From an archaeon (GTDB taxonomy: Archaea > Micrarchaeota > Micrarchaeia > Anstonellales > Anstonellaceae), in NCBI GenBank assembly GCA_020056635.1, contig JAGVHI010000020.1, positions 1-35,494 on the forward strand: 35,494 bases of DNA, in the 5' to 3' direction. Of the stretch, positions 2 through 23,700 are shown piece by piece. Position 1 is the stretch's first letter. Every line of letters begins with the position of its first letter. A model generated the notes under the pieces. That model did no database searches, was not told the origin of the DNA, and saw only the letters and a list, made by a program, of their open reading frames with translations. A program made the position numbers and the translations under genes.

Positions 2-439
2 GACTTGGCAGGATTGAGCAAGCTTGCATTTGATTCACAGCTTGAGTGGCTAGTCAGAGAAAAGGCTGCAAACAAGTACATTGAATTGTCTGACGACTAC
101 GAAGGGCTTCTGGGGATGGCACGAAGGGGGCCTGGCTCTGTACAGTCTAAAGCAGGAAACAAATGCCTGAGCATTTGCATTAGCGAGAATGATTTGACTG
201 GAATAAACAAGCTTGCCAATGATACACGGCTTGAGTATGATGTCAGAGAAAAGGCCCGGGCTGCCATAGAAAAGTTGCAAAAAGAATTGAGCCAGAAACC
301 AGGGATAAATCCACTTGCAGGAGACGGTTTGATTCTTTCAGACACCTCGTTTAAGCCAAACGGGCAAAGATGGATGAGGAATTTGGCGGTCAGGGTGAAG
401 GAAAAAACAACGCACATATTCCTCAAAAGAGTTGCTTAA
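2..439 (+). CDS. HEAT-like alpha-helical repeat protein, 5' truncated by the window edge
   Basis: The frame is open to the window start. Two related units are visible: DLAGLSKLAFDSQLEWLVREKAANKYIEL and DLTGINKLANDTRLEYDVREKARAAIEKL. Confidence 0.6.
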   Translation, partial: DLAGLSKLAFDSQLEWLVREKAANKYIELSDDYEGLLGMARRGPGSVQSKAGNKCLSICISENDLTGINKLANDTRLEYDVREKARAAIEKLQKELSQKPGINPLAGDGLILSDTSFKPNGQRWMRNLAVRVKEKTTHIFLKRVA

Positions 440-492
440 GCCAGATTGGCGTCCAAAGATACCTATATGGGAGGAGAAATTCACTTTGTGCA

Positions 493-716
493 CCATCTAC
501 GCTTAATCCCAAAAACTGCGCAGAAAGGCAAAGAGCGAATTTTCAATATTTCAATTTCTCGGATAGGAACACGAGAATTTAGGCGTCAAAACAGGCGCAA
601 GAAAAAGCCGAAAAATGCCTATTTTTCCCAGTTCCACCTACGCTTAATTTGTTCTCGCGCAAAGCTGCTCAATCATTCGAGAAAATACAGCAAAAATCCG
701 ATTTTACTGACGCCTA
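493..716. repeat. Structured non-coding region with direct and inverted repeats
   Basis: Direct repeat CCA[T/C]CTACGCTTAAT at 493-507 and 634-648. TTCTCG...CGAGAA stem pairs at 556-561/572-577 and 652-657/678-683. Inverted TAGGCGTCA (580-588) / TGACGCCTA (708-716). Confidence 0.6.
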
Positions 717-757
717 GCTTACTCCATATAATATATATGTAATATATCGCGACTACA

Positions 758-1621
758 CTACCTTCTGAATAGTTTTCTTAATGTTTCCCTAATCATCCCC
801 CTAGTGATTACAACCCCATAATGCGAATACTTATACTTCAAAGTCCGTTTTGTAACAAGGATGAAGGACTTATCGTATTCTTTTTGATAATAGGCAAACT
901 TCTTCTCAAGCCAGTCCGGCTGCCTAGATAAGTTCTTGCCAGTCTCGACATCAAAGCAGTAATGCTTGTTCTGGTGCTCCACGACCAAATCTGGGCCATT
1001 TGTCACGTTCATCTCAATTACTTTGCCGTATCTTTTGAGTTCAGCCTCCAGAAGGTAACAGAAGAAGGCATGAACCAAGCTCTCGTTATATCTGGGTTTT
1101 AGCCAGTAATAAGACGCGCCAGAGGTTCCAAAAGGGCTTATTTTCAACGCGCGGTAGCCCTTGGTAAAGAGAGCTTCCTTTTGCCTAAAGGTAAGGTTGC
1201 TCCCCAAATGCAGATTTGCCTCAAGGTCGTATTCCTCCTTTTTGGGCTCTTCTTTCTCATCATCCAGAGCCGTTTCAGGCACTCTTTGGCGCTCAAGCCT
1301 GCGCCATTCCCTCTGCCTCTCGCGCTTTTCTGCCAATTCCCTTTCATGCTCCAATCTCCTTCGTTCTTCCTCCTGCTTTAGCTCCGCCTGGTTCCTCTCG
1401 TACATTTTCCGTAATTCCTCCGGCGTTGGCTTTTTCTCAGGTTCTGGGAAATAAGAGCGAAACTTGTCGTAAATCCATATCGCAAGCAGTACGATTCCAT
1501 ACCCTATTACAAAGGGGAGTAAGATTAGGCCTACAAATCCGACTGCCGCAAGCCCAAGTACGCACCCGATAATGACGAGTGAGCCCTTGACCAGTAGCTC
1601 AAGGGTGTTCTCCATACTCAT
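758..1621 (-). CDS. Membrane-anchored coiled-coil protein with C-terminal PD-(D/E)XK-like nuclease domain
   Basis: Hydrophobic N-terminus, long K/E/R coiled-coil, then C-terminal NGPDLVVEHQNKHYCFDVETGK followed by FILVTKRTL. This resembles the PD...(D/E)xK core. It starts 2 nt after the integrase stop. Confidence 0.65.
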   Translation of the reverse strand: MSMENTLELLVKGSLVIIGCVLGLAAVGFVGLILLPFVIGYGIVLLAIWIYDKFRSYFPEPEKKPTPEELRKMYERNQAELKQEEERRRLEHERELAEKRERQREWRRLERQRVPETALDDEKEEPKKEEYDLEANLHLGSNLTFRQKEALFTKGYRALKISPFGTSGASYYWLKPRYNESLVHAFFCYLLEAELKRYGKVIEMNVTNGPDLVVEHQNKHYCFDVETGKNLSRQPDWLEKKFAYYQKEYDKSFILVTKRTLKYKYSHYGVVITRGMIRETLRKLFRR

Positions 1622-1623
1622 GC

Positions 1624-2823
1624 CTAACCACCCAAGAGAGTTTTGTCAAGCCCTTTCTCAATCACCTTCCTTGCAAGAAATTCCTTTACTTCCGGGTCTT
1701 GGAATAATGCGTTCATCAAGTCGTTTCCCTGCTTGTTGTAATCCTGAATTAGCACTCGCTCATCGAACGGGTTGCCGCATTTCCCGCAAAACGATTGGGT
1801 TGGTGAATTGCGCTCCTTGCAACGGGAACAAATTCTCAAATCCAGTTTTGGCTCTTTTTCAATAGGTTTATCCTTCAGAGAATACATCTGCAAAAGGGTA
1901 GAATCTACATCCCGCCCGGACAAATGAACGTAAGTTGCTGCCATTTCGCTTCCCTGCGTCCATCCAAAATACTCTTTCATTTGCGCTTCCGTTAGCTTTG
2001 AGGCTAGGGACGTTGCCCTCGAATGCCTGAAAAGATGCGGGTAAATGCGTTTCCTTATTCCGCTTACCTTGCTTGCCCTGCGCAGCATGGCAAGAATCGA
2101 AGGATAAGCGCATGGAATGGGCTGATATCTTGCAAGCCTGGCAGGCCAGAGCGGAGCGTCCGGGTTGCCCTTGTCCGGGTGTTCCTGCAACCACTGGCTC
2201 AGTATCTGGACGCTTGCAATTATGCGAACCCGGCGGCTTCCGGTCTTGCCATTTACAATCAAAACAGCCCCATAATTGTCAAACTGGACATTCCTGAGCT
2301 TGAGGTATAGCAACTCACCGATTCTGCATCCAGACTCGTATAATAGCAAAATAAGCGCCTTATCACGCGAATTGGTGGTTGAGTTGGCTATTTTTTGTGC
2401 TTCCTCAACAGTCAATAATTCCTCTGGCAATTTATGCGCCTTGTTGCCAAGTCTCGGCTTGAGCCATTTTATGACTTTGGGAAATTCCTCATCTTTTCCG
2501 AGAAGCCACTTATAGAACATTTTGAGAACAATTTTGAAGTCGTAGCGGGTATATTCGGCATAGTTTTTTGAGTCGAGGTCTGTAACCAGCCGGATCAAGT
2601 CCATTTTCGTAGCTGTTGAAAAATCCTTGTTGAGCCATTGCGCAAGCAGGCGAACGCAGTACATACATTTTACAACCCGCAGTTTTCCCGAGCCTTTGGC
2701 AAGTCGCATCCGTGCGAAATTCTCAATTTGAGTTTTGGCTTTCGCAGGCAAGGCAGATTTTTTCAATCTTCCAAGCTCCTGCTCAAAGTTCGTTTGCGAT
2801 TTGTACATAACGTATTCATTCAA
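1624..2823 (-). CDS. Tyrosine recombinase/integrase with C-terminal zinc ribbon
   Basis: Catalytic motifs: ESGCRIGELLYLKL (R), NGKTGSRRVRI (K), HLFRHSRATSLA (HxxR) and TYVHLSGRD (Y). C-terminal CSRC...CGKC zinc ribbon. TTG start. Confidence 0.93.
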   Translation of the reverse strand: MNEYVMYKSQTNFEQELGRLKKSALPAKAKTQIENFARMRLAKGSGKLRVVKCMYCVRLLAQWLNKDFSTATKMDLIRLVTDLDSKNYAEYTRYDFKIVLKMFYKWLLGKDEEFPKVIKWLKPRLGNKAHKLPEELLTVEEAQKIANSTTNSRDKALILLLYESGCRIGELLYLKLRNVQFDNYGAVLIVNGKTGSRRVRIIASVQILSQWLQEHPDKGNPDAPLWPARLARYQPIPCAYPSILAMLRRASKVSGIRKRIYPHLFRHSRATSLASKLTEAQMKEYFGWTQGSEMAATYVHLSGRDVDSTLLQMYSLKDKPIEKEPKLDLRICSRCKERNSPTQSFCGKCGNPFDERVLIQDYNKQGNDLMNALFQDPEVKEFLARKVIEKGLDKTLLGG

Positions 2824-2940
2824 GGGCTCACCTCACGGAGAGCCCCCTGTCCTGCTCAAAGTAGTATATATAGTTAGGCGAGACAAGCAACGAGGTCAGA
2901 CTCAGGTGATTGACGAGGTAGGCATGATGCTTCTTTTTCA

Positions 2941-2992
2941 TGCCAGTATTATTTGGCAAGGTCTTCTTTATGGTTAGTGCCTAATTCGGCAC
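2941..2992. promoter_or_regulatory. Two small adjacent hairpins/imperfect palindromes upstream of the integrase operon and the GNAT gene
   Basis: TGCCA-N8-TGGCA (2941-2958) and GTGCCTAATTCGGCAC (2977-2992), the latter followed by TTTT. Confidence 0.35.
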
Positions 2993-3077
2993 TTTTGTGC
3001 CTGGTTTACTAGTTGCGGATTGACATTTTATGGAAAAGGAGTAAAAACCTCATAGATGAAAAGCCTGAAAGGGTGTT

Positions 3078-3557
3078 ATGATGCGACCCAAGCTGCGAGA
3101 ACAGAACATCAAAATACGAAAATTCCGAGTAAGCGATGCGTCAAAAGTGAGCAGATTAGTTCGTGGAACTCTCAAAACGGTAAATGCACGCGAATATCCG
3201 AAGAAAACAATTCAAATGTTTGTGAAGTATTTTTCCGCACAAAATATTAAGAAAGACTCCAAGACTGATTCAATCTATCTGGCGTTTGCAGGCAGCAAAC
3301 TTGTCGGCTGCGGCAAGGTTTCCAGAGAAAATTGGATTGGAATGTTATTTCTAAAACCGAGATATATCGGCAAGGGAATCGGGGCTCTGCTTCTTTCCCA
3401 ACTTGAAAAGGCGGCAAAAAAGCACAAAACCAAGGCAATTCATGCTAATTCGGCTCCTGGTGCACTGAGATTCTACATAAAACACGGCTTCAAGAAAGTG
3501 AAAAAAATCAAGAAAGATACTGGCGGAATAGCTTATGTTGTGAAGAAGAAATTATGA
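3078..3557 (+). CDS. GNAT family N-acetyltransferase
   Basis: KIRKFRVSDASKVSRLVR at the N-terminus, LKPRYIGKGIGALLLSQLEKAAKK (acetyl-CoA-binding R/QxxGxG/A-like), then HANSAPGALRFYIKHGFKKVKK. Confidence 0.85.
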   Translation: MMRPKLREQNIKIRKFRVSDASKVSRLVRGTLKTVNAREYPKKTIQMFVKYFSAQNIKKDSKTDSIYLAFAGSKLVGCGKVSRENWIGMLFLKPRYIGKGIGALLLSQLEKAAKKHKTKAIHANSAPGALRFYIKHGFKKVKKIKKDTGGIAYVVKKKL

Positions 3558-3636
3558 AATCGGGTTAGGCTGGTTTGACGCAGGGGCAGCCGTGCATTGA
3601 CAAAAGACAGCGGTACACCTATAGTATCATACAAGA

Positions 3637-3805
3637 TGCAGGGGGAGAGATTTGAACTCTCGAACTCCTAAGAGGCAGGGTATCTTACCCATATTCTTGA
3701 AATTCTTTCTTTTGGGGGTGAAACCCTCACTTCTTTTCTTTCTTCGAAAGAAAAGAGATATGGGTCCTAAGCCCTGCGCATTTGACCAGGCTTTGCTACC
3801 CCTGC
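3637..3805 (-). tRNA. tRNA-Leu (anticodon UAG) containing an 84-nt archaeal intron; CCA not encoded
   Basis: Acceptor GCAGGGG/CCCCTGC, D arm GCA...TGC, anticodon stem CAGGG/CCCTG with loop CUUAGGA, long variable arm CUC-UUAG-GAG, T arm GAGAG-TTCAAAT-CTCTC, discriminator A. Exons 3805-3766 and 3681-3637 give an 85-nt class II tRNA. Confidence 0.92.
3682..3765 (-). other. tRNA-Leu intron at position 37/38 (BHB type)
   Basis: Canonical hBHBh: helix CAGGG/CCCTG, 3-nt bulge AT^A, 4-bp helix CTTA/TAAG, 3-nt bulge GG^A, helix CCCATAT/ATATGGG. Internal 11-bp hairpin at 3732-3756. Confidence 0.92.
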
Positions 3806-3849
3806 GGCATTATTCTGGAAAAAGAGGTTAATTAACCGTTCTACAATAC

Positions 3850-4914
3850 TCAAATCTCAATGGTCTTGTCGCACATTTCTTCTACTTCCTTGAGCAATAC
3901 CTTGTCTGCACTCTTGTCTGTAAGGAGCAGGCAGCCTGCCCCAGTCGCCCGCGCGTCTGTTAGCAGCCTGTGCAGGAATCTTGCGAATAGCTCCCTGTCA
4001 TTGTATATCATCATGGTGGAGACCGAATCAAGCAGTACGAACCTGTCCCCTGGTATCCGATTTAGCGCTTCTTTGACTGATATTGCAATGCTTGATAGGT
4101 TCGAAACATTTCCAATGTAGCGTACCCACTCATTTTTTCCAACTCCGGATTTTGAAATGCAATCAACCACAAGCACCTTGCCAAAATCGATCCCATTGGC
4201 CCCATACTCATGCAACAGGGTTGTATACGGCCTGTTTGCTGAGATAACTATGACCTTGTGGAATTTTTCGGAAAGCAACTTCACCGCAGCAAGGTGCAGC
4301 TTGAGCAGGCTGTCTGAATCAGCTTTGAGCAGTGCGCATCCTTTGTCCGGCACATCCAACAGCTCCTTTTCCATCCTCTCTTCAAACGCAATCCTCCTGC
4401 TCGGCTGTTCCTCAACCTCTACTGCTTCCGCTTCACCTGCAGGAACATTCCGCTCAAGCATAGTTTCATATATCTCCGTGTTTTCGTGCGCAGCATTCGG
4501 CTGAACCCTTGCTTCCCTTGAAAATACCGCATCATATATCTCGGGCTTGTAAACCGGTACCTCGATGACTTTCGCCGCAAGCCCGCGCTTTTGCAAATCA
4601 AGCTGGAGCAACTGCGGGTCAACTGGATGATAATGGGTTATCGCAATCACGTCCGGCTTTTGCTCGATTATCCTCTCAAGTGCATCAGTCGTGCTCCCAA
4701 GCATTACTTCATCAGCAATGCCCAGCAGCCTTACAAGCTCGATACGCTCCTTTTCAGGAAGCTGGAACCGGATCGGGAATTTCCAAGCTGTTTTGTCTGG
4801 CGAAACTACCACTATAAGGCGGTCACCGAGCTTTTTTGCCTCCTGCAAGTAGTGAATATTCCCCGGGTGGAGCCCGTCGAATGCCCCGAATGCCATTATT
4901 GTTTTCCCAGCCAA
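3850..4914 (-). CDS. Cytidylyltransferase (FAD synthase RibL-like) domain fused to a RecA/KaiC-like domain without a clear Walker A
   Basis: N-terminus MAFGAFDGLHPGNIHYLQEAKKLGDRLIVVVSPD; FQLPEKERIELVRLLGIADEVMLG. C-terminal half has a Walker B-like RFVLLDSVSTMMIYND. Confidence 0.75.
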   Translation of the reverse strand: MAGKTIMAFGAFDGLHPGNIHYLQEAKKLGDRLIVVVSPDKTAWKFPIRFQLPEKERIELVRLLGIADEVMLGSTTDALERIIEQKPDVIAITHYHPVDPQLLQLDLQKRGLAAKVIEVPVYKPEIYDAVFSREARVQPNAAHENTEIYETMLERNVPAGEAEAVEVEEQPSRRIAFEERMEKELLDVPDKGCALLKADSDSLLKLHLAAVKLLSEKFHKVIVISANRPYTTLLHEYGANGIDFGKVLVVDCISKSGVGKNEWVRYIGNVSNLSSIAISVKEALNRIPGDRFVLLDSVSTMMIYNDRELFARFLHRLLTDARATGAGCLLLTDKSADKVLLKEVEEMCDKTIEI

Positions 4915-5022
4915 GCAAGCTCACCGGCAGGAGATGCTTTTGGCTGGAATATAAACTAATGCCAAGAGGTTGCCATGGGCTATACCACCTGGCATTTTGG
5001 AAAAAGAAGCAATCCGCCCATT

Positions 5023-5592
5023 CTAGGGAAGCGCAGCTTCGACCATCGGCATCAGCCTTTCTGCATGGGACTTCTGAGTTGTTGCCTCCCTGTGCTTGCC
5101 AACGCTTTGCAATGCAACAGACGCCCTGGAATGCGCGTGGACTGCCATCCCGTGCTCCTCTGCCTGCCTAAAGCACTTGCCTGCCATAGCAAGGTGCGAT
5201 GCAGCACGCTCCACAAGGTTCTTTGCCTTTGCAGGGTCCTTGGCAATCTCAGCAGCCTTCGTATATTCGTCCGCCGCGCTAAGCCGGAGCATCCCAACCT
5301 GCATCGGCTCATTGCACACCTGTGCAGCAACCCCGTATGCGCATGCAGCGCTTGAATGGTCGCCCCTCTGTGCAAACACCTCTCCTGCAGCCGCGTAATC
5401 AAGCCAGTTTTTTTCCCCACCGTTCACGCTTGCGCAAAATACAGAAGGCTTTGCAATACTGGTTGTTTTTACAGCAAGCCACAACTGCGCCTCCATCCTT
5501 TGCCTGGCCTGGTTCGCATTCCCGTTTGCCTGCTGCCCATTGTGTATATTGGCTCTCGTTTTTTCCATCCTATTACCTCCTCTAAGCATCAA
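5023..5592 (-). CDS. TPR/SNAP-like alpha-helical repeat protein, unknown function
   Basis: Ala-rich helical pattern YAAAGEVFAQRGDHSSAACAYGVAAQ...HLAMAGKCFRQAEEHGMAVHAHSRAS. The true start may be the internal MEKTRANI. Confidence 0.65.
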   Translation of the reverse strand: MMLRGGNRMEKTRANIHNGQQANGNANQARQRMEAQLWLAVKTTSIAKPSVFCASVNGGEKNWLDYAAAGEVFAQRGDHSSAACAYGVAAQVCNEPMQVGMLRLSAADEYTKAAEIAKDPAKAKNLVERAASHLAMAGKCFRQAEEHGMAVHAHSRASVALQSVGKHREATTQKSHAERLMPMVEAALP

Positions 5593-5664
5593 TTATTCTA
5601 ATCCTTGATTGTTAATCTTCTGACACTGGCTCTTTATTAAACTGCCTGCCTCAACCCCTATTTG

Positions 5665-6204
5665 ATGGCAAAGATTTATACTCGCACTGGGGATGGCGGG
5701 GAAACAGGCCTTTTGGGCGGGGTTAGGATTGAGAAGGATGCACCCCGTATTGAGGCAATCGGCTCGGTGGATGAAGTAAATGCATCCATAGGCATGGCGC
5801 GAGCCTATTGCAAGGAACCTAAAGTAGGGGCGATTTTAGGCGCAATTCAGTCCGAACTGTTTGACATAGGCGCGGAGCTTGCATCCCCTCACAAGCCAGC
5901 TGCATTCCACACTGACAAAGCCGCAGAGCTTGAGCAATTGATAGACAGGTTCGATTCAGAGCTTGAGGAGCTGACGCAATTCATTTTGCCTGATGGGAGC
6001 ATTCTAGGCTCCAGCCTGCACCTTGCAAGAGTAGTTTGCAGGCGCGCTGAAAGAAGGGTGATTGCGCTTTCGCGCAAGGAAAAACTGAACCCGGCAATCA
6101 AAATCTACCTAAATAGATTGGGAGATTTGCTATTTGTGCTTGCAAGGTATGCGAACAAGAAAGCGGGGATAACTGAAGAGGTTTGGAAAAAAGGCACTGG
6201 ATAG
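5665..6204 (+). CDS. Cob(I)yrinic acid a,c-diamide adenosyltransferase, PduO/MMAB type
   Basis: KIYTRTGDGGETGLLGG N-terminal signature, GSVDEVNASIGMAR, LHLARVVCRRAERRV, YLNRLGDLLFVLARYAN. Confidence 0.93.
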   Translation: MAKIYTRTGDGGETGLLGGVRIEKDAPRIEAIGSVDEVNASIGMARAYCKEPKVGAILGAIQSELFDIGAELASPHKPAAFHTDKAAELEQLIDRFDSELEELTQFILPDGSILGSSLHLARVVCRRAERRVIALSRKEKLNPAIKIYLNRLGDLLFVLARYANKKAGITEEVWKKGTG

Positions 6205-6267
6205 GGGGTTATTTTTTAAACCCTCTTGGGCATAATAGACGATAACAATGCATATTTTCCCGCATTA

Positions 6268-6283
6268 CCATTCAATCGAATGG
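6268..6283 (+). promoter_or_regulatory. Hairpin immediately 5' of the L1 Shine-Dalgarno; candidate leader element
   Basis: CCATTC-AATC-GAATGG perfect 6-bp stem, directly followed by GAGGGG and the ATG at 6295. Confidence 0.3.
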
Positions 6284-6294
6284 GAGGGGCTTAG

Positions 6295-6933
6295 ATGGAC
6301 AAGAAGAAAATAGTAGATGCGCTAACAAAGGCGCTCGAGGACAAGGGAAAGCGCAAATTCTCCCAGTCAGTGGAATTCATAATGAATTTTAGGGGAGTCG
6401 ATTTCACCAAGCCCGAGCACAGGCTCAACATTGATATTGCGCTTCCGAAAGGGAAGGGAAAGGAGCTAAGGATAATTGTTTTTGCGGACGGGCAGCTTGC
6501 GGTGGATGCAAAGAACGCGGGGCTTGAAGTGGTCGGCGGCGCCCAAATCCCATCAATGGCTGCAAACAAGAAGGATTTGAAGAAGCTTGCAAAGCAGTCC
6601 GAGTTCCTTTCGCAGCCCAACCTCATGACAGTGGTTGGTAAAAACCTAGGCCAGGTGCTTGGCACTATGGGAAAGCTGCCAAAGCCGGTTGCCGGATTGG
6701 GCGTTCCGGTAATAACCGAGGCTGCAAAGCAGGCAAGGACAAGGGTAAGGATGGCGTCAAAAGGCAAATACCTGCCGGTTGCGCAGTGCCTGGTGGGAAC
6801 CGAGGCAATGAACATCGAGGATTTGGCTGAGAACATTGATGCGGTTTATGAAAAAGTGAAGGCAAAGGTCACAGAGCCCAACATAAAATCGGCGTTCGTG
6901 AAGCTCACGATGGGCAAGCCGGTCAAAATTTGA
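6295..6933 (+). CDS. rpl1: 50S ribosomal protein L1 (uL1)
   Basis: Archaeal L1 features: FIMNFRGVDFTKPEHRLNIDIALPKGKGK, LGTMGKLPKPV; strong upstream SD GGGAGGGG. Confidence 0.95.
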   Translation: MDKKKIVDALTKALEDKGKRKFSQSVEFIMNFRGVDFTKPEHRLNIDIALPKGKGKELRIIVFADGQLAVDAKNAGLEVVGGAQIPSMAANKKDLKKLAKQSEFLSQPNLMTVVGKNLGQVLGTMGKLPKPVAGLGVPVITEAAKQARTRVRMASKGKYLPVAQCLVGTEAMNIEDLAENIDAVYEKVKAKVTEPNIKSAFVKLTMGKPVKI

Positions 6934-6944
6934 TGGTGAAACTT

Positions 6945-7874
6945 ATGGCTACAAAACGGACAATCAGCAAGGAATCGCACGGGCATCTCCGAGAGGGTAT
7001 AAAGCAGAAGGCCGATGCGGCAGAAAAGCTTGCAGGCGAAATCAAAGGGGCAAAAGTGCTTGCGCTTGTGGACTTGAGGCATTTGCCGGACAGGATACTT
7101 CAGAAAACCAAGAAGCAATTGCGTGGAAAGGCAAAATTCGTGATTGCAAAGAACACGGTGCTAAAGCGCGCAATCGAGAAATCGGGGAAAGGGAAGAAAA
7201 TTGCAGAGCTTCTCACAAGCCCCTCCTCGCTCGTGCTAACTGACATGACTCCGTACGAGCTGTTCAAGTTCTTCAAGCACAACAAGCAGAAAGTTGCAGC
7301 GAAACCCGGGCAGGTAGCACCGTTTGATATTATTGTGCATGAAGGGGAGACAGATTTGCCCCCTGGCCCTGCATTGTCCGAACTGAAAACCGCAGGCATA
7401 CAGGCGCAGGTGAAAGCAGGCAAAATCGTGATTGCGAAGGACTCGACTGTTGCAAAATCGGGCGCAAAAATTTCCGGGATGATTGCAAAAGCATTGCAAA
7501 AGCTGGGAGTGCTTCCGTTCGAAACAGGCGTTTCGATGCTTGCGGCTGACGAGAAAGGGGATTTCTACATGGCGGAAGTGCTCAACATAGACGAGGCGCA
7601 GCTCTCGGGCGACCTGAAGGCTGCTCTTGCGGATGCGATGAACCTGTCAATAAACGCATCCTACCCGACTGATGCAAACATCACAATACTGCTCTCCAGC
7701 GCGTATCGGCAGGCCGATTCGCTTGCTAAGAACGGTGGTCTGTACTCCGAAGTATCGATGGAGTCGCTTCTGGCTACCGCAATCAGGCAGGCAAACGGGT
7801 TGCCAGCGACAGTGATTCCCCCGAGCGGGAATACTGCCGTCGAGTCAGGCTCGCCGGAGAACAAAGGCAGTTGA
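6945..7874 (+). CDS. rplP0: 50S ribosomal stalk protein L10 (uL10/P0)
   Basis: LVDLRHLPDRILQKTKKQLRGKAKFVIAKNTVLKRAI, TPYELFKFFKHNKQKVAAKPGQVAPFDIIVHEGETDLPPGPALSELKTAGIQAQVKAGKIVI. Listed from the first ATG matching MATKRT; the ORF is open from 6930. Confidence 0.95.
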   Translation: MATKRTISKESHGHLREGIKQKADAAEKLAGEIKGAKVLALVDLRHLPDRILQKTKKQLRGKAKFVIAKNTVLKRAIEKSGKGKKIAELLTSPSSLVLTDMTPYELFKFFKHNKQKVAAKPGQVAPFDIIVHEGETDLPPGPALSELKTAGIQAQVKAGKIVIAKDSTVAKSGAKISGMIAKALQKLGVLPFETGVSMLAADEKGDFYMAEVLNIDEAQLSGDLKAALADAMNLSINASYPTDANITILLSSAYRQADSLAKNGGLYSEVSMESLLATAIRQANGLPATVIPPSGNTAVESGSPENKGS

Positions 7875-7907
7875 AACATGAATAGTTGGACTGAAGGAGG
7901 TAATTGT

Positions 7908-8213
7908 ATGAAAGTTGACCCATATCTGCATGCTGTACTGCTCCTGCACGGCGCAGGCAAGGAAGTAAACGACACGCACATCAAGGCGGTGCTCCACGCT
8001 GCAGGCGTGACCGCGGATGAGGCGCGCGCAAAGGTCCTTGCAGAGGCTGTGAAGGGAGTGAACTTCGAGGACCTGCTAAAAGCGGCAGCGATGCCGGTTG
8101 CGGCAGCGCCCGCGGCTGCGGCTCCGGCCGAGCATGGCAAGAAGGAAGAGAAAAAGGATGAGAAGAAGGACGAGGCTGCAGCGGCAGAAGGGCTTGCAAG
8201 CCTGTTCGGATAA
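7908..8213 (+). CDS. rpl12: 50S ribosomal protein P1/L12
   Basis: [15 protein letters not shown]-type P1 fold, Ala-rich hinge, acidic/basic tail ending [16 protein letters not shown] before the ATG at 7908. Confidence 0.95.
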
Positions 8214-8214
8214 A

Positions 8215-8275
8215 TCTCTTTTTCCTTTTTTTCTTTATTTTTTCTAATTTTTCTAATGCACCTCATTTTTTTACG
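8215..8275 (+). terminator. Poly-T archaeal terminator after the stalk operon
   Basis: Successive T tracts CTCTTTTTCCTTTTTTTCTTTATTTTTTCTAATTTTT just after the L12 stop. Confidence 0.6.
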
Positions 8276-8308
8276 AACAATTATTAAGCGCCAAAGCCAG
8301 AGTTATGC

Positions 8309-9571
8309 ATGGGCGACGCGCCTGTGCAAGCACAGAAACCGGCTGTTTCTCAGCAGAGCGAATTCCAGCAATCAGCTCCAATAGCAGAGGCCGGTTCCAA
8401 AAAAGAGCCCCCCTCGCCCCCGCCAGTCCCAGCCACTTTTTCCCAAGGTAAAAATGCAGCTAGCGGGCAAAGGGAAGGGCCCGGATTGCCAACCTCTCCA
8501 GCTTTGGAATCAGAAAAGGCAGAAACAAAAACGCCATCGACCATCTCCAGCCAAAACATCCAGCCCGGCTCACAAACCGACCGGCTGCCAGCTATCCCAA
8601 ACATCCCGCAGGCCGGGGCCGCAGAGGCCCAGATTCCAATCCAAATTCCAAGCGAGGCCGGCAAATCCATGCAAGCTCAGCCAGGCTCCGCACCTCCTGC
8701 CAAAGAGCAATCCCGGCCCCTGCTCACAGAGGCAAGAAAGCGGGAAATAATAGAGCAGGAGAAGGCATGGGTGCAAACCCATTTTCTTGACAGGGCGATA
8801 AAAAATCTCTCGGGCGCGGGATTCGACACCTCTGTAATTGAAAAGAACCGCGAACTGATACAGCAGCGTATCGAAGACGGGCTCAACTCGGCAAAGGCCA
8901 AGGATTATGGGAATGCACCATTTATGGGCAAATGGGGCGAGCGCTTCCTTGCTAAAAACGGAATCGCATTGAACACAAGGCAAATTGAAAAAGCTGCGGG
9001 AGATGCGGAATTCTTCAGCGCGCAGGCGCGGGATGCGCTCTGCCATGAGGTTGCCCATCATCTCCAGTCCCCTGCAGTGGGCCAGCAGAGCCAGCTTCTG
9101 CACAACCTTGGCACGGAAGCAGGCGCTGAGGCGGTTTCGAACACATTGCTCGGGAACCAGACTGCTGACCTTGCATACACAAGCGATTTGCTGCTGCTCT
9201 CAAACGCCCTCTGTGCAAAAGGGGGCGGCGAGGCTCGCATAAAAGAGAATTTTATCAGATATAACTTTTTGGGGTTCGAAGACAAGGAAGCCGCTGGCAG
9301 GCTTGAGGGCGACCTGCAAGCAAATACATCCCAATTTTCAGAAAATGGCATTCCGGAAAATCGCCTTGATAAGCTTCGGCTTTGCCAACACCTTCTCACA
9401 GACAATCCAAATCCCGAGGCAATTCGGCTCTTCTCGGCTTTCACGTCAATACCGCAAGAGGGGATAAACGGCTTCCTGCTCGATGACCTAAACGCCCAAA
9501 TACAGCTGGAGGAATCAAGGCTTTCGGGCAGCCAAATCACTCCAGCCCAGCCAGCGCCAGAAACTCCATAA
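8309..9571 (+). CDS. Putative cytoplasmic zincin metallopeptidase with a disordered Pro/Ser-rich N-terminus
   Basis: ALCHEVAHHLQ (HExxH) followed by TEAGAEAVSNTLLG as possible glutamate ligand. About 130 aa of low-complexity P/S/Q/A-rich N-terminus. No signal peptide visible. Confidence 0.65.
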   Translation: MGDAPVQAQKPAVSQQSEFQQSAPIAEAGSKKEPPSPPPVPATFSQGKNAASGQREGPGLPTSPALESEKAETKTPSTISSQNIQPGSQTDRLPAIPNIPQAGAAEAQIPIQIPSEAGKSMQAQPGSAPPAKEQSRPLLTEARKREIIEQEKAWVQTHFLDRAIKNLSGAGFDTSVIEKNRELIQQRIEDGLNSAKAKDYGNAPFMGKWGERFLAKNGIALNTRQIEKAAGDAEFFSAQARDALCHEVAHHLQSPAVGQQSQLLHNLGTEAGAEAVSNTLLGNQTADLAYTSDLLLLSNALCAKGGGEARIKENFIRYNFLGFEDKEAAGRLEGDLQANTSQFSENGIPENRLDKLRLCQHLLTDNPNPEAIRLFSAFTSIPQEGINGFLLDDLNAQIQLEESRLSGSQITPAQPAPETP

Positions 9572-9576
9572 CCCAA

Positions 9577-10430
9577 TTAGCAGGCCCAGCTATAGCCGTA
9601 CTTTGAAATGTTCGCACGCACGCAAGCGTTATTCTGGCATTCGCAATAGTTCTCTATCTGCCCGCAAGGGAAGGGCGGCTCCAGGTCGCAGATTGCAGTT
9701 TCGCATTCCCACATTTTCCCTTTTGAATCTGGATTCTTGTCCCAATCCGCCTGCCAGCCCTTATTCACGCACACTGCAGGCCCGGAGGGATGGTTTCCTG
9801 AAAGTGTGCAATCAGAATCCATTTGGCATGAGAATTCTGCGCTTGCATTTGTGGCGTTTGCAGCAGGCTCCTTGGCGCACACGTTCCCCCTGCTCTCATC
9901 CTTGCCTCATCTGTAATTGTTGCAATCTGGGTTGCAATGCCCTCGTCAGTTTCATTCCCGAAAGTGATAATCACCTTGTCCAAATTATGGATTTCGTAAT
10001 CAGCGAGCCCATGCACCTCCTTCCCATTCACGAAAAACCGCAGCGTTTTACCGTTCCCGGAGCAGTATTTCTCCCCCATATCCATTGCAATGCAATCCGG
10101 GCTTAGCGTGATATTCAGAGTAGAGAAAAAGTAGCCCCAGGTGGCGCCTGTTGCGTGCTTGTGCACCAAATTCCCGTCCAAATCATGCATGTGCGCAAAA
10201 ACGCTCCCTGTCGCGCAGTTTTCAACTCCGCCGGAATTGTCGGTTTCTGTCATATATTTGGCTTGCGAAAAGTTGTACGCTTGCCCGTTTATGTACAATT
10301 TGAAATCCGAATGCTCGTGCGCGCTTCCCATAGCCCCATACGCGGGTTTCTGGAGGCTGAGGAAAAAATACAGCCCGAGCCCTAGCATCAGCATTATCAC
10401 AAGCAGCTTCCATGTTTTGGGCTTCTCCAT
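9577..10430 (-). CDS. Membrane-anchored extracytoplasmic His-rich/Cys-rich protein, split by an apparent frameshift
   Basis: ORFs 9765-10430 and 9577-9882 (both minus) join in a different frame at a G5 tract (C5 at 9886-9890 on +). N-terminal TM anchor, HEHSDFKLYINGQ, MHDLDGNLVHKHATG; C-terminal Cys-rich segment. Confidence 0.65.
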
Positions 10431-10481
10431 ATCACGCTTTCGAAGCTCCCTTTTTTATTCCCTGCCCCCGCCAATTCGCGT

Positions 10482-11534
10482 ATGGGCTTCTGCTCAAACT
10501 GCGGCTCGTACATGGCTGACAAGGATTACGGCAAATGCTATGTGTGTACAGCAGCCCATGTTTCAGATGATGTTCCGTGCCAGAGGTGCGGCATGTACCT
10601 GCCTCGGCACGAGCTTCAGATGTGGAACGCGCGCTACTACTGCCAATATTGCATAATGGACATCCGGGACGAGGAAAAGGCGTTTGAGAGGCGCGTCCGG
10701 CGCGAGGAGCAGCTTGAGCGCCCGGAAAGGCAGGACAGGTACGATAAGGAGCCGATGCAGCACTACCCAACAGGGGAGCAGTGCCAGCGCTGCGGGAAGG
10801 CGGTTGAAATGCTTTACGATTTCGGGGGAAGAAGGCTGTGCCGCTCATGCCTTGAGGATGAAGGGGGAAAGCCGCCAACCTCCCCAAGCTCGCTTGGCGC
10901 AATGGTTGGGGTGATGCGCGACCTAGGCGAAAGCGGGGTGAAAGTTGTTGAGAAGGCAAGGACTATCGGGGAAAAAATCCGGGAGGCAAGGGAAAAGTCT
11001 GAAGGGATGGGCACTTCCGGGGAAAGAAAGCATGAGCGGACTATTGCAGGGCGGGCAAGGGAAATGCTCGGGTTCGGAGCTGGGAAAGGCGAAAAAGGGG
11101 GCGCTGGCGAGGGAAAACCAGAAGGGGAGGCTGGCAAGGGGGGCGCGGGCAAATCATTTGACATTAAAACACGCTCATTCATCAAGCGTGAGCACGGGCG
11201 GGAAGTAAGGGAGGTTGCGCACGGGGCGGAGGGCGGAATCGAGTTCGACCCTAAAACAAGAAGGTTCGTGGAGCGCGCAAGGGAAGAAAAGGAGGAAAGG
11301 AAGGAAACCGGGCCGCAAACTGATTCGCAGCCGATTTCGCAGGAGGAAAAGGGGCAAGAAAAGCCTTCCCGCGAGCAAACGAGAGATGATGCGCACGAGG
11401 GAAGGGTTCGGCTGCAATCCCATGAACAGTTCGCGCACAGGAAAATGCATCATGATGAAACAAGGGTCGTGGGCGGGCTCTCGCGTTTCCGGCTCCTTGG
11501 GAAAAAACTCGGGAAAGAGAAGAAGGAAAAGTGA
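10482..11534 (+). CDS. Multi-zinc-finger protein with a highly charged low-complexity C-terminus
   Basis: CSNC...CYVC, CQRC...CQYC and CQRC...CRSC pairs, followed by long G/E/K/R-rich sequence. Confidence 0.75.
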   Translation: MGFCSNCGSYMADKDYGKCYVCTAAHVSDDVPCQRCGMYLPRHELQMWNARYYCQYCIMDIRDEEKAFERRVRREEQLERPERQDRYDKEPMQHYPTGEQCQRCGKAVEMLYDFGGRRLCRSCLEDEGGKPPTSPSSLGAMVGVMRDLGESGVKVVEKARTIGEKIREAREKSEGMGTSGERKHERTIAGRAREMLGFGAGKGEKGGAGEGKPEGEAGKGGAGKSFDIKTRSFIKREHGREVREVAHGAEGGIEFDPKTRRFVERAREEKEERKETGPQTDSQPISQEEKGQEKPSREQTRDDAHEGRVRLQSHEQFAHRKMHHDETRVVGGLSRFRLLGKKLGKEKKEK

Positions 11535-11576
11535 AGCATAAAGCAGAATTTATAAACTCCTCTTCGTTATCCACCC

Positions 11577-13394
11577 ATGCCAGACTACGTTTTTGAAGTG
11601 TCCTCGGAAGCAGGAAGGAAAATCGGGGGCATATACACGGTGCTCCAGAGCAAGTCCCGCTACTTGGTGGAAAAATACGGCGAGGGGTACATGCTAATCG
11701 GGATGGACGATGGGAAGCAGCACAATGATTTCAAGCCTGCGCAGCCCCCAAAGCCCATTGCATTGGCTATGGAGAAGGTTAGGGAAAAAGGGGTGGACTG
11801 CAAGTACGGAAAATGGGCGTATGGCAACAACGCCTCTCTTGTGCTGATTGACGCAAAGCGCGCAGCCGACGAGATGATGGAATACGCTGAGAACGGCGGG
11901 GAAAAGACCGACAAGGCGCAAAACTACTGGAAATTCCTGCTCTGGAAGCACTACGGCGTGGACTCGCTCATGGAAGCCTCGTGGGATTTCACCGAGAATG
12001 CAGTTTGGGGCTTCGGGGTCGGCATGTTCTTAGAAGAGCTGTTGCTGCAAAAACCCTACTCTGGCTCAAAATGCGTGGGCCAGTTCCACGAATGGATTTC
12101 GGGCGCAGCGCTCCTTTATTGCAACATGAAAAAGCTGCCGATTGCGACCGTTTTCACCACGCACGCGACCGTGCTTGGCAGGACGCTCTCCTCCTTTGGG
12201 AGGGACGTGCTCTCAGAGGCTTCCTCAAAGGAGCAGATAAACACGAGCGAGGCGTACCACTTCAAGGTGGAGGGCAAGCACAACCTTGAGGCTGCCTGCG
12301 CGCGCGAGTGCACTGTGCTCACCACGGTTTCCGAAACGGTGGGGGAGGAAGTGGAATACATACTCGGGAGGAAGCCGGACGTGATTACTGTGAACGGGTT
12401 TGACGTGGCTGCGATGGAAAAGGAAAACGATGTCGCAAACCTCGCAACCTACATGCACAGCGAGCTTGTGCAGTTTGCCGAGTCGATTTTCCTCCCCTAT
12501 TACCAGATGGATTACACGGATGCCATCCTCACTTACATATCCGGCAGGTACGAGTTTCAGAACAAGGGGTTCGATATCTACATCGAGGCGCTCGGGAAGC
12601 TCAACGAGCGGCTCAAGAAAAGGAAAAGCCCCAAGCGCATAATCGCATTCATATTCGCGCCAAGCGCTGTGCGCGAGCCCAAGGTATCCATAATAAAGAA
12701 CTACCTGCTCCTTGACAAGATAACCGAAGTTACTGACCAGCTTGGCGCATGCAAGGACGGCACGTGCAAGAATTTGCGGGACAGGCTCTCAAGGGTGAAA
12801 AACGAGGAAAAAAAGCGGATGCTCGAGGCTATGGCTGGCGGGTTCATCCGGGAAGGCGCAAAGCCCCCAATCTCGTGCTTCGAGCTCAACTACTCAAACG
12901 ACATAATGCTCAAGGCGTGCTCCGCAGCCGGGCTTGAGAACCGCGAAGAGGATGCGGTGAAGGTCATTTTCTACCCGACTTACGCAAAGCCCAATGACGG
13001 ATTGCTTGACATGAGCTACTACGACATGATAGGCGGCATGGACATCGGCATATTCCCCTCGCGCTACGAGCCCTTCGGCTACACCCCGCTTGAGGCAGGG
13101 CTCAAGCTCAACATCGCAATCACCTCGGACATGACAGGGTTTGGCAGGTATATGTCCAAGAAGGCAAACCTGCAGAACCGTGGGCTGGTGGTGCTGCACA
13201 TGATGGGCAAATCCAAGGATGCTGCAGTGGACGAGCTTGCGTCCGAGCTCGAGCGGATGTACCTGCTTGACAGGAAGGGGCTGCGTGCGCTCCAGCACGA
13301 CGCATACGAGCTTGTGAAGCTTGCGGACTGGAAGGACTTGATAAAGAACTACTTTGATGCATACGAGCTTGCGGAAAGGAAATTCTACAAATAG
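11577..13394 (+). CDS. Glycogen synthase, GT3 (eukaryote-type) family
   Basis: N-terminus FEVSSEAGRKIGGIYTVLQSKSRYLVEKYG; TTHATVLGRTL; IFPSRYEPFGYTPLEAGLKLNIAITSDMTGFG (E-X7-E), typical of GYS-like enzymes. Confidence 0.88.
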   Translation: MPDYVFEVSSEAGRKIGGIYTVLQSKSRYLVEKYGEGYMLIGMDDGKQHNDFKPAQPPKPIALAMEKVREKGVDCKYGKWAYGNNASLVLIDAKRAADEMMEYAENGGEKTDKAQNYWKFLLWKHYGVDSLMEASWDFTENAVWGFGVGMFLEELLLQKPYSGSKCVGQFHEWISGAALLYCNMKKLPIATVFTTHATVLGRTLSSFGRDVLSEASSKEQINTSEAYHFKVEGKHNLEAACARECTVLTTVSETVGEEVEYILGRKPDVITVNGFDVAAMEKENDVANLATYMHSELVQFAESIFLPYYQMDYTDAILTYISGRYEFQNKGFDIYIEALGKLNERLKKRKSPKRIIAFIFAPSAVREPKVSIIKNYLLLDKITEVTDQLGACKDGTCKNLRDRLSRVKNEEKKRMLEAMAGGFIREGAKPPISCFELNYSNDIMLKACSAAGLENREEDAVKVIFYPTYAKPNDGLLDMSYYDMIGGMDIGIFPSRYEPFGYTPLEAGLKLNIAITSDMTGFGRYMSKKANLQNRGLVVLHMMGKSKDAAVDELASELERMYLLDRKGLRALQHDAYELVKLADWKDLIKNYFDAYELAERKFYK

Positions 13395-17780: not shown

Positions 17781-20700
17781 ATGATGGGAGAAAATGCGAA
17801 ATTACCAGCATTGGCTCTACTGGCACTGTTGGTTGCAGGCGTGCCTGTAATCTTCTCAGTTCCCACACAGGGAATACCCCTGCTAAATACCTCTTCCGGA
17901 TACAATTTCACCTGGTCCAACCTCACCTGCTACAACCAGAGCACCGCAGGCGCGACTTCAAATGCGTTCGATTTTAGGGCAAATGGCACCTCGCGCGCAG
18001 TGCTGCACATGACTTTTTACACTAATGTAACTAGTGCAGCAAGGGCAGTCAGCGACTATTCCTCATATGCGAACAACGGCACCCTGGGCGACGGGACAGC
18101 GGCAAATGTGCCGCTCTGGAACGCAACAGGGAAATCTGCAGGCGCGTACCCATTTGACGGAATAAACGACATAATAGCAATCCCGGATGCCGCAAGCCTG
18201 GACGGGAATGGGGCGTATAACGAGCTGACCCTTGAAGCCTGGATAAAGTCGAACCTTTCTGCCCAGACTGGCATGATAATAACGAAAAGAAACACCAGCA
18301 CCATAAGCAGCTACCAGCTCGGGTTTGACAGCGTATCCACTGGAAAAATATTCTGCGGCATTTACCCAGTTACTGGTTCGTATGCGGAAGCCCCTGCCGC
18401 TTCCGCCCCTGCAATTGCAGTAGGAGTCTGGTACCACGCGGTCTGCACGTACAAGGATGGGGTTGGGGTAAGGCTCTACGTAAACGGGACCAACGTCACT
18501 GCAAACACTCTCCCGACCTCAAATGTGCGCGACAGCGCAACCCCTGTTCTCATAGGGGCACGGTACAATGGCGGGGTAACGGTGCAGAGGTGGTTCAACG
18601 GGGTTATAGACGAGGTGAGAGTGTACAACCGCGTGCTCTCAGATGCGGAGATACTTAGCCATTACAACCTTGGCTACAGCCGGCTCGTTTCGCAGGAGCT
18701 TCTAAACGACACCACCTACACATGCTCTGTAACCCCAAGCGACGGGTTCACTGATGGCCTAACCAACGTGTCGAACCAGGTTTATGTCAGGATTGAAGGG
18801 GCGCCTTCAGTTTCAATAAACTCCCCGACTGCATCCACATACAACAACCAAACCGTGCTTGTGGACATCACTGGCACCGGGCTTTCTACATGGTACAATT
18901 GGAACGGCACGAACGAGAGCTACTCGACTCCTGTGCAAGTAAATTTCACGGAAGGGGCAAACACGCTCTACGCTTACTCTAATAATTCAACTGGCGGCAT
19001 CGCAGCCGCAAATGTCACATTTACCATCAACCTCTCCGTATCAGATGTGACTTCCCCTACTGTAAATCTGCTATCTCCGCCAAGCGGCACCGCAAGCCTG
19101 AACAGCTCGTACAATTTCACGTGCAATGCATCAGACAACAATATTGTGATGAACGTCACATTCTACCTCTGGAACAGCACGGCGCTTTGGTACAATAACA
19201 GCACATCATCGGCTACTGGGTATGCAAACGGGGCAGTGTTCAATTTTTCCGCATCCGGCATGCCGGTTGACAATTACCAGTGGAACTGCAAGGCATACGA
19301 CAACTCAAGCAACGGCGCATTCGCCGCCTCGAATTACACGCTCACTGTGAATGCACCTACATATGATGATGTATTTTTCAACAGCAGTTTCCAGTCCGGG
19401 AACCTATACAATGTAACTTACGTGAACGGGGATGCAAGCGGGAACCGGAAGTATATTGCGAACATCACGTACCCTGGCATAACTGAGAATTGCAGCAGTG
19501 TGGCGATAACGCAGTACAATTGGTGGTTCTTCTTCAAGATGACAAATGTTTCCGGGAAAAACATCACAGTGAACATCACAAACCCCCTGGCTACTGATTT
19601 GGTGGACCGCTGGCCAAATTTGCGGCCGAGGTACAGCTACGATTTCGGGCTTGGGAACATAAACGATTCATCGAATAACTGGAGCATAGGGACCTGGGCA
19701 GCGCTCATGCCCCCGAACACCTCTTTCAGCGCAGCTGGGTTATGGTTTGCAATGACATTGAACGTGCCGGGCGGGCAGGATACTGCCTATTTGGCTGCCA
19801 ACACCCCATATACTGTGAGAAGAAGGGACTTGTTCTTTGAGAACATCTCTTCCAGCCCATATGTGAACATCACCATCCTGGGTGTCACTACGCTGGGGCT
19901 AAACCTCTCCGCAATAAGCATTACGGACCCTGCTTACCCGGATTCGAGAAAGGTGAAGGTGTATTCAATTGCAAATCAGCACGCAAACGAGGAAACGCAG
20001 GGCAGCTGGTATTCCGAGGGCGCAATCAATTTCCTGCTGAACACAACCAACAGCACTGCAGCCACGCTTAGGCGCAATTACATTTTCAGGTTCGTGCCAA
20101 TCCAAAACGTAGATGGGGTGTACAACGGGAGCGGCAGGTGGAGCCCTGTTTATAACGGCAACACAGTGTACGACCCGAACCGGTGCTGGACCAACGCGAG
20201 GAACGGGGTTGCATCATACAATGTGGTGGACTGGACTTACCAGGATGCGGTCTCATTCGCCCCCAACTGCTCGCTTGACATACACGGCTCGATTAACGGT
20301 GAGAGCCTCAACCCGCCCCCAGGGTATAACTACTTCCTGCACGACGGGCTAGCGGATGCCGCGATGAGCGCTTTCACAATGAATATATCTGCATTCTGGG
20401 AGAATGTGTATTCAACTACAGGCAATGCAGGGATTGCAAGCTCGTTCCCCCCGAACATGCGGCAGTCCCCTGCTGCAATCCACCCATCAACAATGATGGA
20501 AAATACCGCAGGGAATTTCTCAGGCACTGCAATAACCCCTCTTGAAACCACTTGGCAGCGCTATGGAATCGAGCTTTTGCAAGGGATACACGGCTATTAC
20601 AACAACACCGCAAACGAGCCGGAAACCCAATCGCCCGCAGTGAACCTGCTCTCTCCTGTATCAGGCACCAACAGCACCAACAGTTCGTACAATTTCTCTT

Positions 20701-23700
20701 GCAATGCATCAGACAACAATATTGTGATGAACGTCACATTCTACCTCTGGAATAGCACAGCGCTTTGGTTCAATAACAGCACGTCATCGGCTGCTGGATA
20801 CGCAAACGGGACAGTGTTCAATTTTTCCGCATCCGGAATGCCAGTTGATAACTACACCTGGAACTGCAAGGCATACGACAACTCAAGCAACGGCGCATTT
20901 GCAGCCTCTAATTACACGCTCAATGTGAACGTTTCAAGCTACGATGACGTGCTGTTCGACACCACCTTCGAATCCATGAACCTCTATAATGTGGGGTTTG
21001 TTTCAGGCGATGCTTTGGGAAACCGCTACTACAACGCTACGACCTATTTCAACAGCTCCTTCTCATCCACATACAACTGGTGGTTCTTTTTCAGGATGAG
21101 GAATGCCACTGGAAAGAACATATACATAAACCTCACGAACCCGACCGATGCGGACTTCACCTCCAACCGCTGGCCAAACGTGCGCCCTCGCTTTTCCTAT
21201 AATTTCGGAGAAGGGAACGTGAACCTCTCCAACCCTGATTGGGGGGCAGGCGCCTGGTTCAACATTCAATCCAGTTCTGTTTCCTATGCCGGCTCCGCGC
21301 CACGCTGGTATTCTTTCAACATTTCCGCAACGCAGGATACGGTTTGGGTTGCCCCAAGCGTGCCTTACACAGTTACAAGGAGGGACCGTTTCATATCGGA
21401 AATTTCTGGTAGCCCGTACCTGAACATCTCGGTGCTGACAGTTTCGCCAAACGGGTATAATGTAACTGCAATACAGCTTTCCGATTTCAACTACAACGGG
21501 AGCGCAAAAACCAATATTTACATAACCGCGCAGCAGCATGCAAACGAGGAGCCGCAGGGTTCCTGGGCGGCGGAGGGCGCAATAAGGTGGCTGCTTAACG
21601 ATTCGAATATTACTGCAGTTACTATACGCAAGAACTACGACATAAAATTCATCCCAATAATGAATGTTGATGGGGCGAAATGGGGCATGGGCAGGTTCAC
21701 CCCTGAATACGGAGGGAGCCCGAGCCAGTACGACCTGAACCGGCAGTGGGATGATGCAAGGACGCAGGCATCCGGCGTTTACCAAATTGTGAACAAGACA
21801 TGGGTCGATTTTGCAGCTTTTGATGCGGATTCCATAATGGACTGGCACGGCTCAGTGAACGGTGACGGGAGCTCAGGCATCGGGACAAACTACCACCTTG
21901 GCACTTCCTCAACCGCGTTTACGAACATGCTCAACAACATATCAGTTTACTGGCGCTACTACTCTGGCACGAACGGGAATGCTGGAAGCGCAGGCGGCGA
22001 GACCTGCGCAAGCAACGCGGCAACCGCGGGCTATGTGCCCTCATCTAATGTAGAATGGACCATAGCGAATTACAGCGCCGCTCCAACTCTCGCAGGCAAC
22101 AATTCAATCTGGATGGATGACGGGATTAGCCAAATTAGGGGGGTAGACGGTTATTACCAAACCAGGGGCGCAAATGACATCACCGTACCCAATGTATCGC
22201 TCATCTCACCATCAACAAGCACCTCAAGCTCCAACACCTCGTACAATTTCACGTGCAACGCATCCGATAATGAGGTAGTGATGAACGTCACATTCTATCT
22301 CTGGAACAGCACGGCACTTTGGTACAACAATAGCATCTCATCGGCTGCCGGATACGCAAACGGCACCTGGCTTAACTTCAGCGCCTCCTCTCTCCCTGTC
22401 GACAATTACCAATGGAACTGCAAGGCATACGACAACTCAAGCAACGGCGCATTTGCAGCTTCCAATTTTACCTTGAACGTGACCTCCCCAGCCATTCCCG
22501 CGGTTTCGATAGCCTCGCCGAATAATGCAACATACGGCAACGCTACCGTGCTTGTGAACATATCTGCCCCGGGCGCCTCCTCAATCTGGTACAATTGGAA
22601 CGGAACTAATGCAACTTACACTGCGCCAGTAAATATAACTTTCAATGAGGGCTCAAACACGCTTTATGCATACGCAAACAATTCTGTTGGTGCTGAAAAC
22701 TCTACAAGCGTAACATTCTCAATAGACACAATCGCTCCAGCAATCTCAATCACTTCGCCCGCAAACCAAACCTATACCAACGCATCCATCCCCCTCAACA
22801 TTTCTGCTTCTGGCTCAGCAAATATATGGTACAACTGGAACGGGACGAATGCCACATATGCTGCGCCAACCTCCGTGAATTTCACGCAGGGGGCAATAAC
22901 CCTTATCGCGTATGCGAATGATTCTGTGGGAAACCAAAACGCAACGAACGTTTCTTTCTTTATTGACTCCCTCGCCCCGCCCCTTTCCATCATCTCCCCG
23001 GCAAACCAGACATATAACAACCTAACCCTCCTGCTCAACATCTCATCGGTCGGGGCTGCGAGCGTATGGTACGAATATAACGGGACAAACACAAGCTACA
23101 CTTCACCGGTTTACGTGAATTTTTCGGAGGGCGGAAATAGCCTATACGCCTATGCAAACGACTCTCTGGGCAACTTGAATTCGACTTTGGTTTCATTCTA
23201 TGTAACTACTACGGCGCTTTCAGTTGTGATAATCTCCCCCCAGAACGCCACGTACCAAACCCGCAACATATCGGTTTCGCTCTCAAGCACTGGGGCATAT
23301 ACCTGGTACAACTGGGACGGCACCAATATCACGTATTCCAGTCCAGCAAATGTGACATTCAATGAAAGCGGCAACACCCTTTATGCGTATGCAAATGACA
23401 CATTAGGCAATATCACTTCCGCGAACGTTTCATTTTTCGTGGATTCATCGCTCCCTGCAGTATCCCTTGTATCTCCGACCACGCAGGCAGGGAACTACTC
23501 ACGAAGCTGGATTGCGGCAAACGCAACCGCAACCGACTCCTCTCTTGCAAACCTCACAGTATACCTGAACAATTCCACTGCAACATACTCTGCCCAAACC
23601 TCGGCATCATCCCCCCTATTCTACAATTTCACGTCGCTTCCGGACGGATACTATTGGCTCAACGCAACAGCGAACGATTCTGTGGGGAACTCCAACTCAA

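Follow-up and report, generated by a model that had tools for sequence, protein, structure and literature searches.

A tyrosine recombinase (integrase) gene and the gene for a membrane-anchored, PD-(D/E)XK-like protein directly downstream of it make up the core of a Candidatus Micrarchaeota integrative element that sits at the 3′ end of a tRNA-Leu gene. The nuclease-like domain of this protein also forms the C-terminal end of VirB4-type ATPases. We tentatively propose, somewhat short of an even chance, that this small element with its relaxase-like membrane nuclease is an archaeal equivalent of the integrative mobilizable elements (IMEs) of bacteria, its function being read from gene context and predicted fold.

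RESULTS

An integrase gene coupled to a gene for a membrane protein

The window, i.e., the whole stretch of DNA analyzed (35,494 nucleotides), is the complete contig C4 of a 1.1-Mb source genome that is 79% complete. Its named close relatives are Ca. Micrarchaeota, including Ca. Fermentimicrarchaeum limneticum Sv326. Elsewhere in the window, an ORF of 2,476 aa (17781-25211, forward strand) is very long given a genome of about 1.1 Mb. The features of the element are listed in Table 1.

Table 1. Features of the tRNA-Leu element in the window
Feature	Position	Strand	Basis or remark
DnaJ-repeat protein, cargo, 3′ part	5..439	+	Sequence; cut at contig end
Conserved noncoding region with AAGCGYA and TGCGCA repeats; candidate cis-acting site (oriT or origin)	484..757	-	
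Membrane-anchored PD-(D/E)XK-like protein	758..1621	-	287 aa
Nuclease-like domain (residues 129-287)	761..1237	-	AF2 pLDDT 91.9
Acidic residues of the nuclease-like domain	D211, 989-991; D224, 950-952; E226, 944-946	-	24-homologue alignment
Charged, coiled-coil-like linker	1238..1444	-	Sequence
Hydrophobic anchor (residues about 6-52), space for two membrane helices	1466..1606	-	Hydropathy
Tyrosine recombinase (integrase) with C-terminal zinc ribbon	1624..2823	-	TTG start, 399 aa; zinc ribbon match below cut-off
Conserved integrase leader	2824..3000	-	blastn between copies
GNAT acetyltransferase, cargo between left end and integrase	3078..3557	+	PF13673, E 1.1e-20
Left end (LE), common to other copies	3572..3647	-	86% identity over 72 nt with G013 left ends
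Attachment core CTCCCCCTGCA, last 11 nt of the tRNA; recurs at the elements' right end	3637..3647	-	
tRNA-Leu(TAG) with intron, integration target	3637..3805	-	ARAGORN, introns allowed

The catalytic domain of the integrase (PF00589; E 1.9e-17; 64 bits against a cut-off of 27.1) identifies it as a tyrosine recombinase, and the protein was matched in Pfam, NCBIfam, and PHROGs; the match to a zinc ribbon at its C terminus was weak. The downstream ORF had no match in any of four profile libraries, those three included. As a preliminary description of this DNA had noted, the integrase stop codon (TAG, 1626-1624) is followed by GC and then by the ATG of the next ORF at 1621, leaving a gap of 2 nt. 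Coupling with gaps of 1 to 2 nt was found in seven loci of four genomes (G000 C4, two copies on G013 C17, G013 C31, G018 C4, G018 C153, and G012 C144). As the downstream ORF is also under purifying selection between close copies (dN/dS 0.07 to 0.27), the pair is more than a chance association.

Three more distant loci (in G098, G279, and G299) have a three-gene version, integrase-X-nuclease, with short gaps or overlaps. Protein X comprises 123 to 233 residues with a coiled-coil-like part, and hydrophobic segments were seen in it in G279 and G299. Thus, membrane part and nuclease form a single protein in the first set of loci but two separate proteins in the second. The recurring linkage to zinc-ribbon integrases expected from the preliminary description was borne out by this survey of neighborhoods, and we have little doubt that the integrase and membrane-nuclease architecture is real, recurrent, and under selection. 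One nuclease gene (G013 C44) has no integrase within 11 kb upstream; the copies of G009 and G103 lie at contig ends, and that of G096 is disrupted by IS630.

At L044:6243-7541, an IS630 transposase is in frame with the nuclease domain. A functional transposase-nuclease fusion was considered there and rejected, because the nuclease portion starts in the middle of the protein, at EKEVYG, which indicates that an IS probably inserted into a nuclease gene. A reverse transcriptase gene lies beside the integrase-nuclease pair of one element (L039:3836-4969, reverse strand), and others lie near VirB4-nuclease operons (L047 and L049); these are possibly diversity-generating retroelements.

A tRNA-Leu integrative element is built around the pair

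The integration target was missed by a default ARAGORN scan and found once introns were allowed. The same left end occurs on several tRNA-Leu genes of other genomes. At two element left ends (L038:14418-14640 and L049 near 17359), tRNA-Leu genes with an apparent T-loop intron went undetected by ARAGORN. The right end of the elements, CATCATCCTTGWGTTNCYCYCCCTGCA, has 13 exact matches and three further matches that deviate by one or two mismatches, spread over ten genomes; its reversed sequence, used as a control, gave zero matches. Like an IME, the element thus has an integrase and, where a tRNA gene ends, attachment sites in direct repeat.

Homology between copies extends past both genes. Shared 2.6-kb blocks had suggested that the pair might be a 2.5-kb transposon of its own, which we rejected when the true right end was located beyond variable cargo. 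Nor does the pair stand free as a minimal module, as had been supposed: it is confirmed as the core of a tRNA-Leu element with cargo, and kindred integrases also occur without the nuclease (G000 C12, G000 C20, G013 C29, G016 C144, and G063 C81). The GNAT gene is cargo of this kind, missing from the aligned G013 and G018 copies. The DnaJ-repeat gene at the edge of the window probably has its 5′ part at C12:1-978, the part that PF00226 matches. Since one gene thus seems to be divided between two contig ends, the element probably extends from C4:3647 to C4:1 and then from C12:1 to C12:2974, about 6.6 kb, with the join deduced from the sequences of the two ends.

The repeat-rich noncoding region directly follows the nuclease gene and is retained in copies without an integrase. 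Its repeats therefore make it a candidate site of action of the nuclease. A structured RNA was also considered for this region and rejected (covariation term -0.17).

The right end often abuts the next left end, showing that elements lie in tandem. On contig C12 of the source genome, one element (2964-8541) carries a radical SAM gene, an integrase 93% identical to that of the window, ankyrin and ParE-like genes, and no nuclease, and it adjoins a tandem element without an integrase (8541-12973). Three elements follow each other on G013 C29. A complete relative (G013 C17, 6121-14418) consists of integrase, nuclease, and lipoprotein-like cargo without secretion genes; the absence of any match to type IV secretion system (T4SS) proteins in it agrees with the lack of an own mating apparatus in IMEs. 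On the Sv326 chromosome (G098:C1), three equal-score integrase matches at 341197, 367186, and 393175 are spaced by exactly 25,989 bases, suggesting that a segment of about 26 kb is present in three tandem copies.

These copies bear on two other functions of the nuclease. It might be an integrase accessory factor, acting in excision or integration through directionality or end processing, like XisH for the fdxN element, and its strict coupling to the integrase in two- and three-gene versions would agree with this, as does the presence of XisH among its structural neighbors (see below). However, the 93% identical integrase of the same genome occurs without a nuclease, tyrosine recombination is an established reaction that requires no additional nuclease, and neither the membrane anchor nor the ATPase fusions described below would be explained; we regard this function as quite improbable. 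The ParE-like cargo indicates that toxin-type functions occur in these elements, and the nuclease itself might be an addiction or maintenance toxin that damages cells losing the element. Yet no small antitoxin-like partner is conserved with it, its coupled partner being the integrase, which leaves a toxin role only a very slight chance.

The C-terminal domain has a predicted PD-(D/E)XK-like fold with an E-x-E active-site pattern

The membrane protein contains, as previously described, an N-terminal hydrophobic anchor, in which 29 windows of 19 residues exceed a hydropathy of 1.6, a charged coiled-coil-like linker, and a GPDLV...DVETGK segment. In the AF2 model of the C-terminal domain, one helix and a few strands precede a core ordered helix, three strands, helix, strand; the model of the VirB4-fused domain (pLDDT 89.6) agrees in this order. 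Foldseek neighbors were mostly of the PD-(D/E)XK class, namely, Cdn1/Can2, the small subunit of R.BspD6I, Hjc, XPF/Hef, XisH, and YaeQ, with a best E-value of 2e-3 and every E-value above 1e-3. A C-terminal fold other than PD-(D/E)XK, which would have refuted the nuclease assignment made earlier, was thus not indicated, and the models support a PD-(D/E)XK-like fold with an alpha-beta-beta-beta-alpha-beta core and acidic residues on predicted strands 2 and 3.

Alignment of 24 homologues revealed invariant residues that include H184, D211, E226-T227-G228, and V256 (H56, D83, E98, T99, G100, and V128 in domain numbering), with D or E at position 224 throughout. All 24 share the pattern D-x12-(D/E)-x-E-T-G, in which a glutamate takes the place of the usual lysine. 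The (D/E)-x-K of the superfamily is thus absent, and the lysine of DVETGK, first taken for the catalytic residue, is not conserved among these homologues. E-x-E active sites do occur among active PD-(D/E)XK enzymes, such as BamHI.

The missing canonical lysine would be accounted for if the domain were a catalytically inactive tether that binds element DNA and holds it at the membrane for partition or transfer without cutting. Conservation of D, D/E, and E in both standalone and VirB4-fused forms is hard to explain without metal binding, however, and BamHI is an active enzyme with an E-x-E site; we find such a tether decidedly improbable.

Relatives of the domain were found neither in plasmids (queried with the window domain) nor in phages (queried with the VirB4-fused domain) nor in IMG/VR (queried with the standalone alignment).

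The same domain terminates VirB4 ATPases, and a distant version terminates HerA-like ones

Large ATPases that end in the same domain match VirB4 (CD1110-type, E 1e-72). They belong to a conserved operon encoding an N6/N4 methylase, a T4SS pilin, membrane proteins, PrgI, and VirB4-nuclease. An Orc1/Cdc6 gene lies near it, in many cases together with an integrase gene of the family described above, at tRNA-Leu. The methylase gene comes first in most of these operons (e.g., L050:2378-3229). Among 99 relatives, 18 of the 20 strongest VirB4 proteins carry the domain, and one of the two exceptions is cut by a contig end; more distant VirB4 proteins were without it. VirB4 fusions are also present in Nanoarchaeota and Woesearchaeota.

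In a domain tree rooted by midpoint only, all standalone copies and the copy disrupted by IS630 cluster together (100/100) within the VirB4 forms, so that a single detachment is the simplest history. Two of the ten genomes with the standalone form harbor a VirB4-nuclease element and three more a nuclease-less VirB4; neither was found in the window's own genome, at 79% completeness.

Some 85 genomes, most of which belong to families f13 and f17, encode a HerA/VirD4-like ATPase that ends in a distant version of the domain, with about one copy in each, as judged from four proteins that were read and from frame length for the others. Examples that appear to be chromosomal are L160:1-1884, L161:1384-3072 (reverse strand), L162, and L163. 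In the HerA-linked relatives, the stretch before the core is longer and, by eye, winged-helix-like.

A membrane-tethered restriction or exclusion nuclease, which would protect the resident element by cutting the incoming DNA of other elements at its entry site, could be envisioned from the membrane location and from the restriction enzymes and CRISPR ancillary nucleases Can2 and Cdn1 among the best Foldseek matches. The methylase that opens the operons of the VirB4-fusion ICEs could then provide the protection in a restriction pair. This role would explain why the large elements have a methylase, but it leaves unexplained the standalone copies, which have no adjacent relative of it. Moreover, no PADLOC family of known anti-phage defense systems was matched at E-values up to 1, and DNA processing agrees better than defense with a domain that is fused to a transfer ATPase and coupled to an integrase. 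We therefore consider restriction or exclusion unlikely.

The domain has no significant match to the Replic_Relax family

One of the 24 members reached PF13814 (Replic_Relax), with an E-value of 0.0069 that falls short of the cut-off, and hhalign comparison with two Replic_Relax proteins was not significant (probability under 1%). Membership in the MOBC/Replic_Relax family was rejected on these results. PF03432, the classical relaxase family and the only relaxase family in that search, was absent from 99 genomes. A true Replic_Relax protein (PF13814; G030:C7:20515-21063, L129) lies near a VirD4-like ATPase in a related genome, with a VirB4 on the same contig, and is possibly a MOBC-type relaxase.

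DISCUSSION

The domain described here follows DNA pumps, the membrane, and integrases, and all three associations would be explained by a nuclease that readies the DNA of the element for transfer. Its presence as the standard C-terminal part of VirB4 in ICE-like elements shifts its likely role from defense or exclusion to the processing of DNA for transfer. We envision that the integrase acts on two sites, the attachment site of the element and the 11-nt core in which the tRNA gene ends, and recombines them, as suggested by the sites themselves; recombination between a core and an attachment site is established for the tyrosine integrase family. The membrane-held nuclease would then process the excised DNA; the most likely way is a nick at a cis-acting site, for which the repeat-rich region is a candidate. 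It would hand the processed DNA to a DNA pump of the VirB4/HerA type, supplied by a helper. The coupled protein would thereby fill the role of a relaxase, much as MOBC relaxases do in bacteria. Counting against this reading are the nonsignificant Replic_Relax comparisons, the Foldseek E-values, the small share of carrier genomes (two of ten) with a VirB4-nuclease element, and the integrases of the family that lack the nuclease.

This candidate matters because published reviews describe archaeal relaxases as unknown (PMC9905601, PMC12857230, PMC11389934): archaeal conjugative elements have no known relaxase (PMC9905601, PMC12857230, PMC6563490), and the discovery of archaeal mobilizable elements has lagged for lack of one (PMC11389934). 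The domain is a candidate for the enzyme, missing so far, that would process DNA in archaeal transfer, and its threefold tie to DNA-pumping ATPases, membrane anchors, and integrases singles out a definite protein with its active-site residues and possible DNA targets. The analysis also defines a family of tRNA-Leu elements, arranged in tandem and with exchangeable cargo, in hosts with genomes of about 1 Mb. A broader generalization, possible although we rate it as somewhat unlikely, is that in DPANN archaea the missing relaxase of conjugation is the VirB4-fused PD-(D/E)XK domain, and that the integrase and membrane-nuclease elements are the first recognized archaeal mobilizable elements, equipped with their own detached copy. 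The literature searched, with partial coverage, contained no description of the module or of the VirB4-nuclease fusion.

Several known systems resemble parts of this arrangement. XisH of the fdxN element likewise links an endonuclease-like fold to a site-specific recombinase and is a Foldseek neighbor of the window domain. Its partner, XisF, is a serine recombinase, and to our knowledge XisH has neither a membrane anchor nor VirB4 relatives.

We know of no membrane anchor in NurA, the nuclease of TdtA/NurA transjugation in Thermus thermophilus. The corresponding element, ICETh1, is also a tRNA-end element with a XerC-type integrase, a HerA-superfamily ATPase, and a nuclease, and its efficient transfer requires the nuclease encoded next to the HerA-like ATPase (PMC5365140). 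In contrast to the window domain, NurA is a separate protein of RNase H fold (PMC9905601); the fold predicted here is not RNase H-like but PD-(D/E)XK.

MOBC relaxases are PD-(D/E)XK enzymes, and TraX of pAD1 binds direct repeats (PMC12857230). Like the present domain, they combine a nuclease of the PD-(D/E)XK type with a link to conjugation (PMC12857230), and a Replic_Relax protein read for comparison has a PD-x(n)-E-x-E pattern, with a DUF87 ATPase gene directly upstream of its gene. The domain described here differs in residing on VirB4, or on a membrane anchor beside an integrase, and the window protein seems to be without a full N-terminal winged helix. Bacterial IMEs, finally, differ from this archaeal element in that its putative relaxase comes from a different sequence family and its oriT and helper are putative, but they have in common with it an own integrase, integration at a tRNA end, the lack of an own mating apparatus, variable cargo, and tandem insertion.
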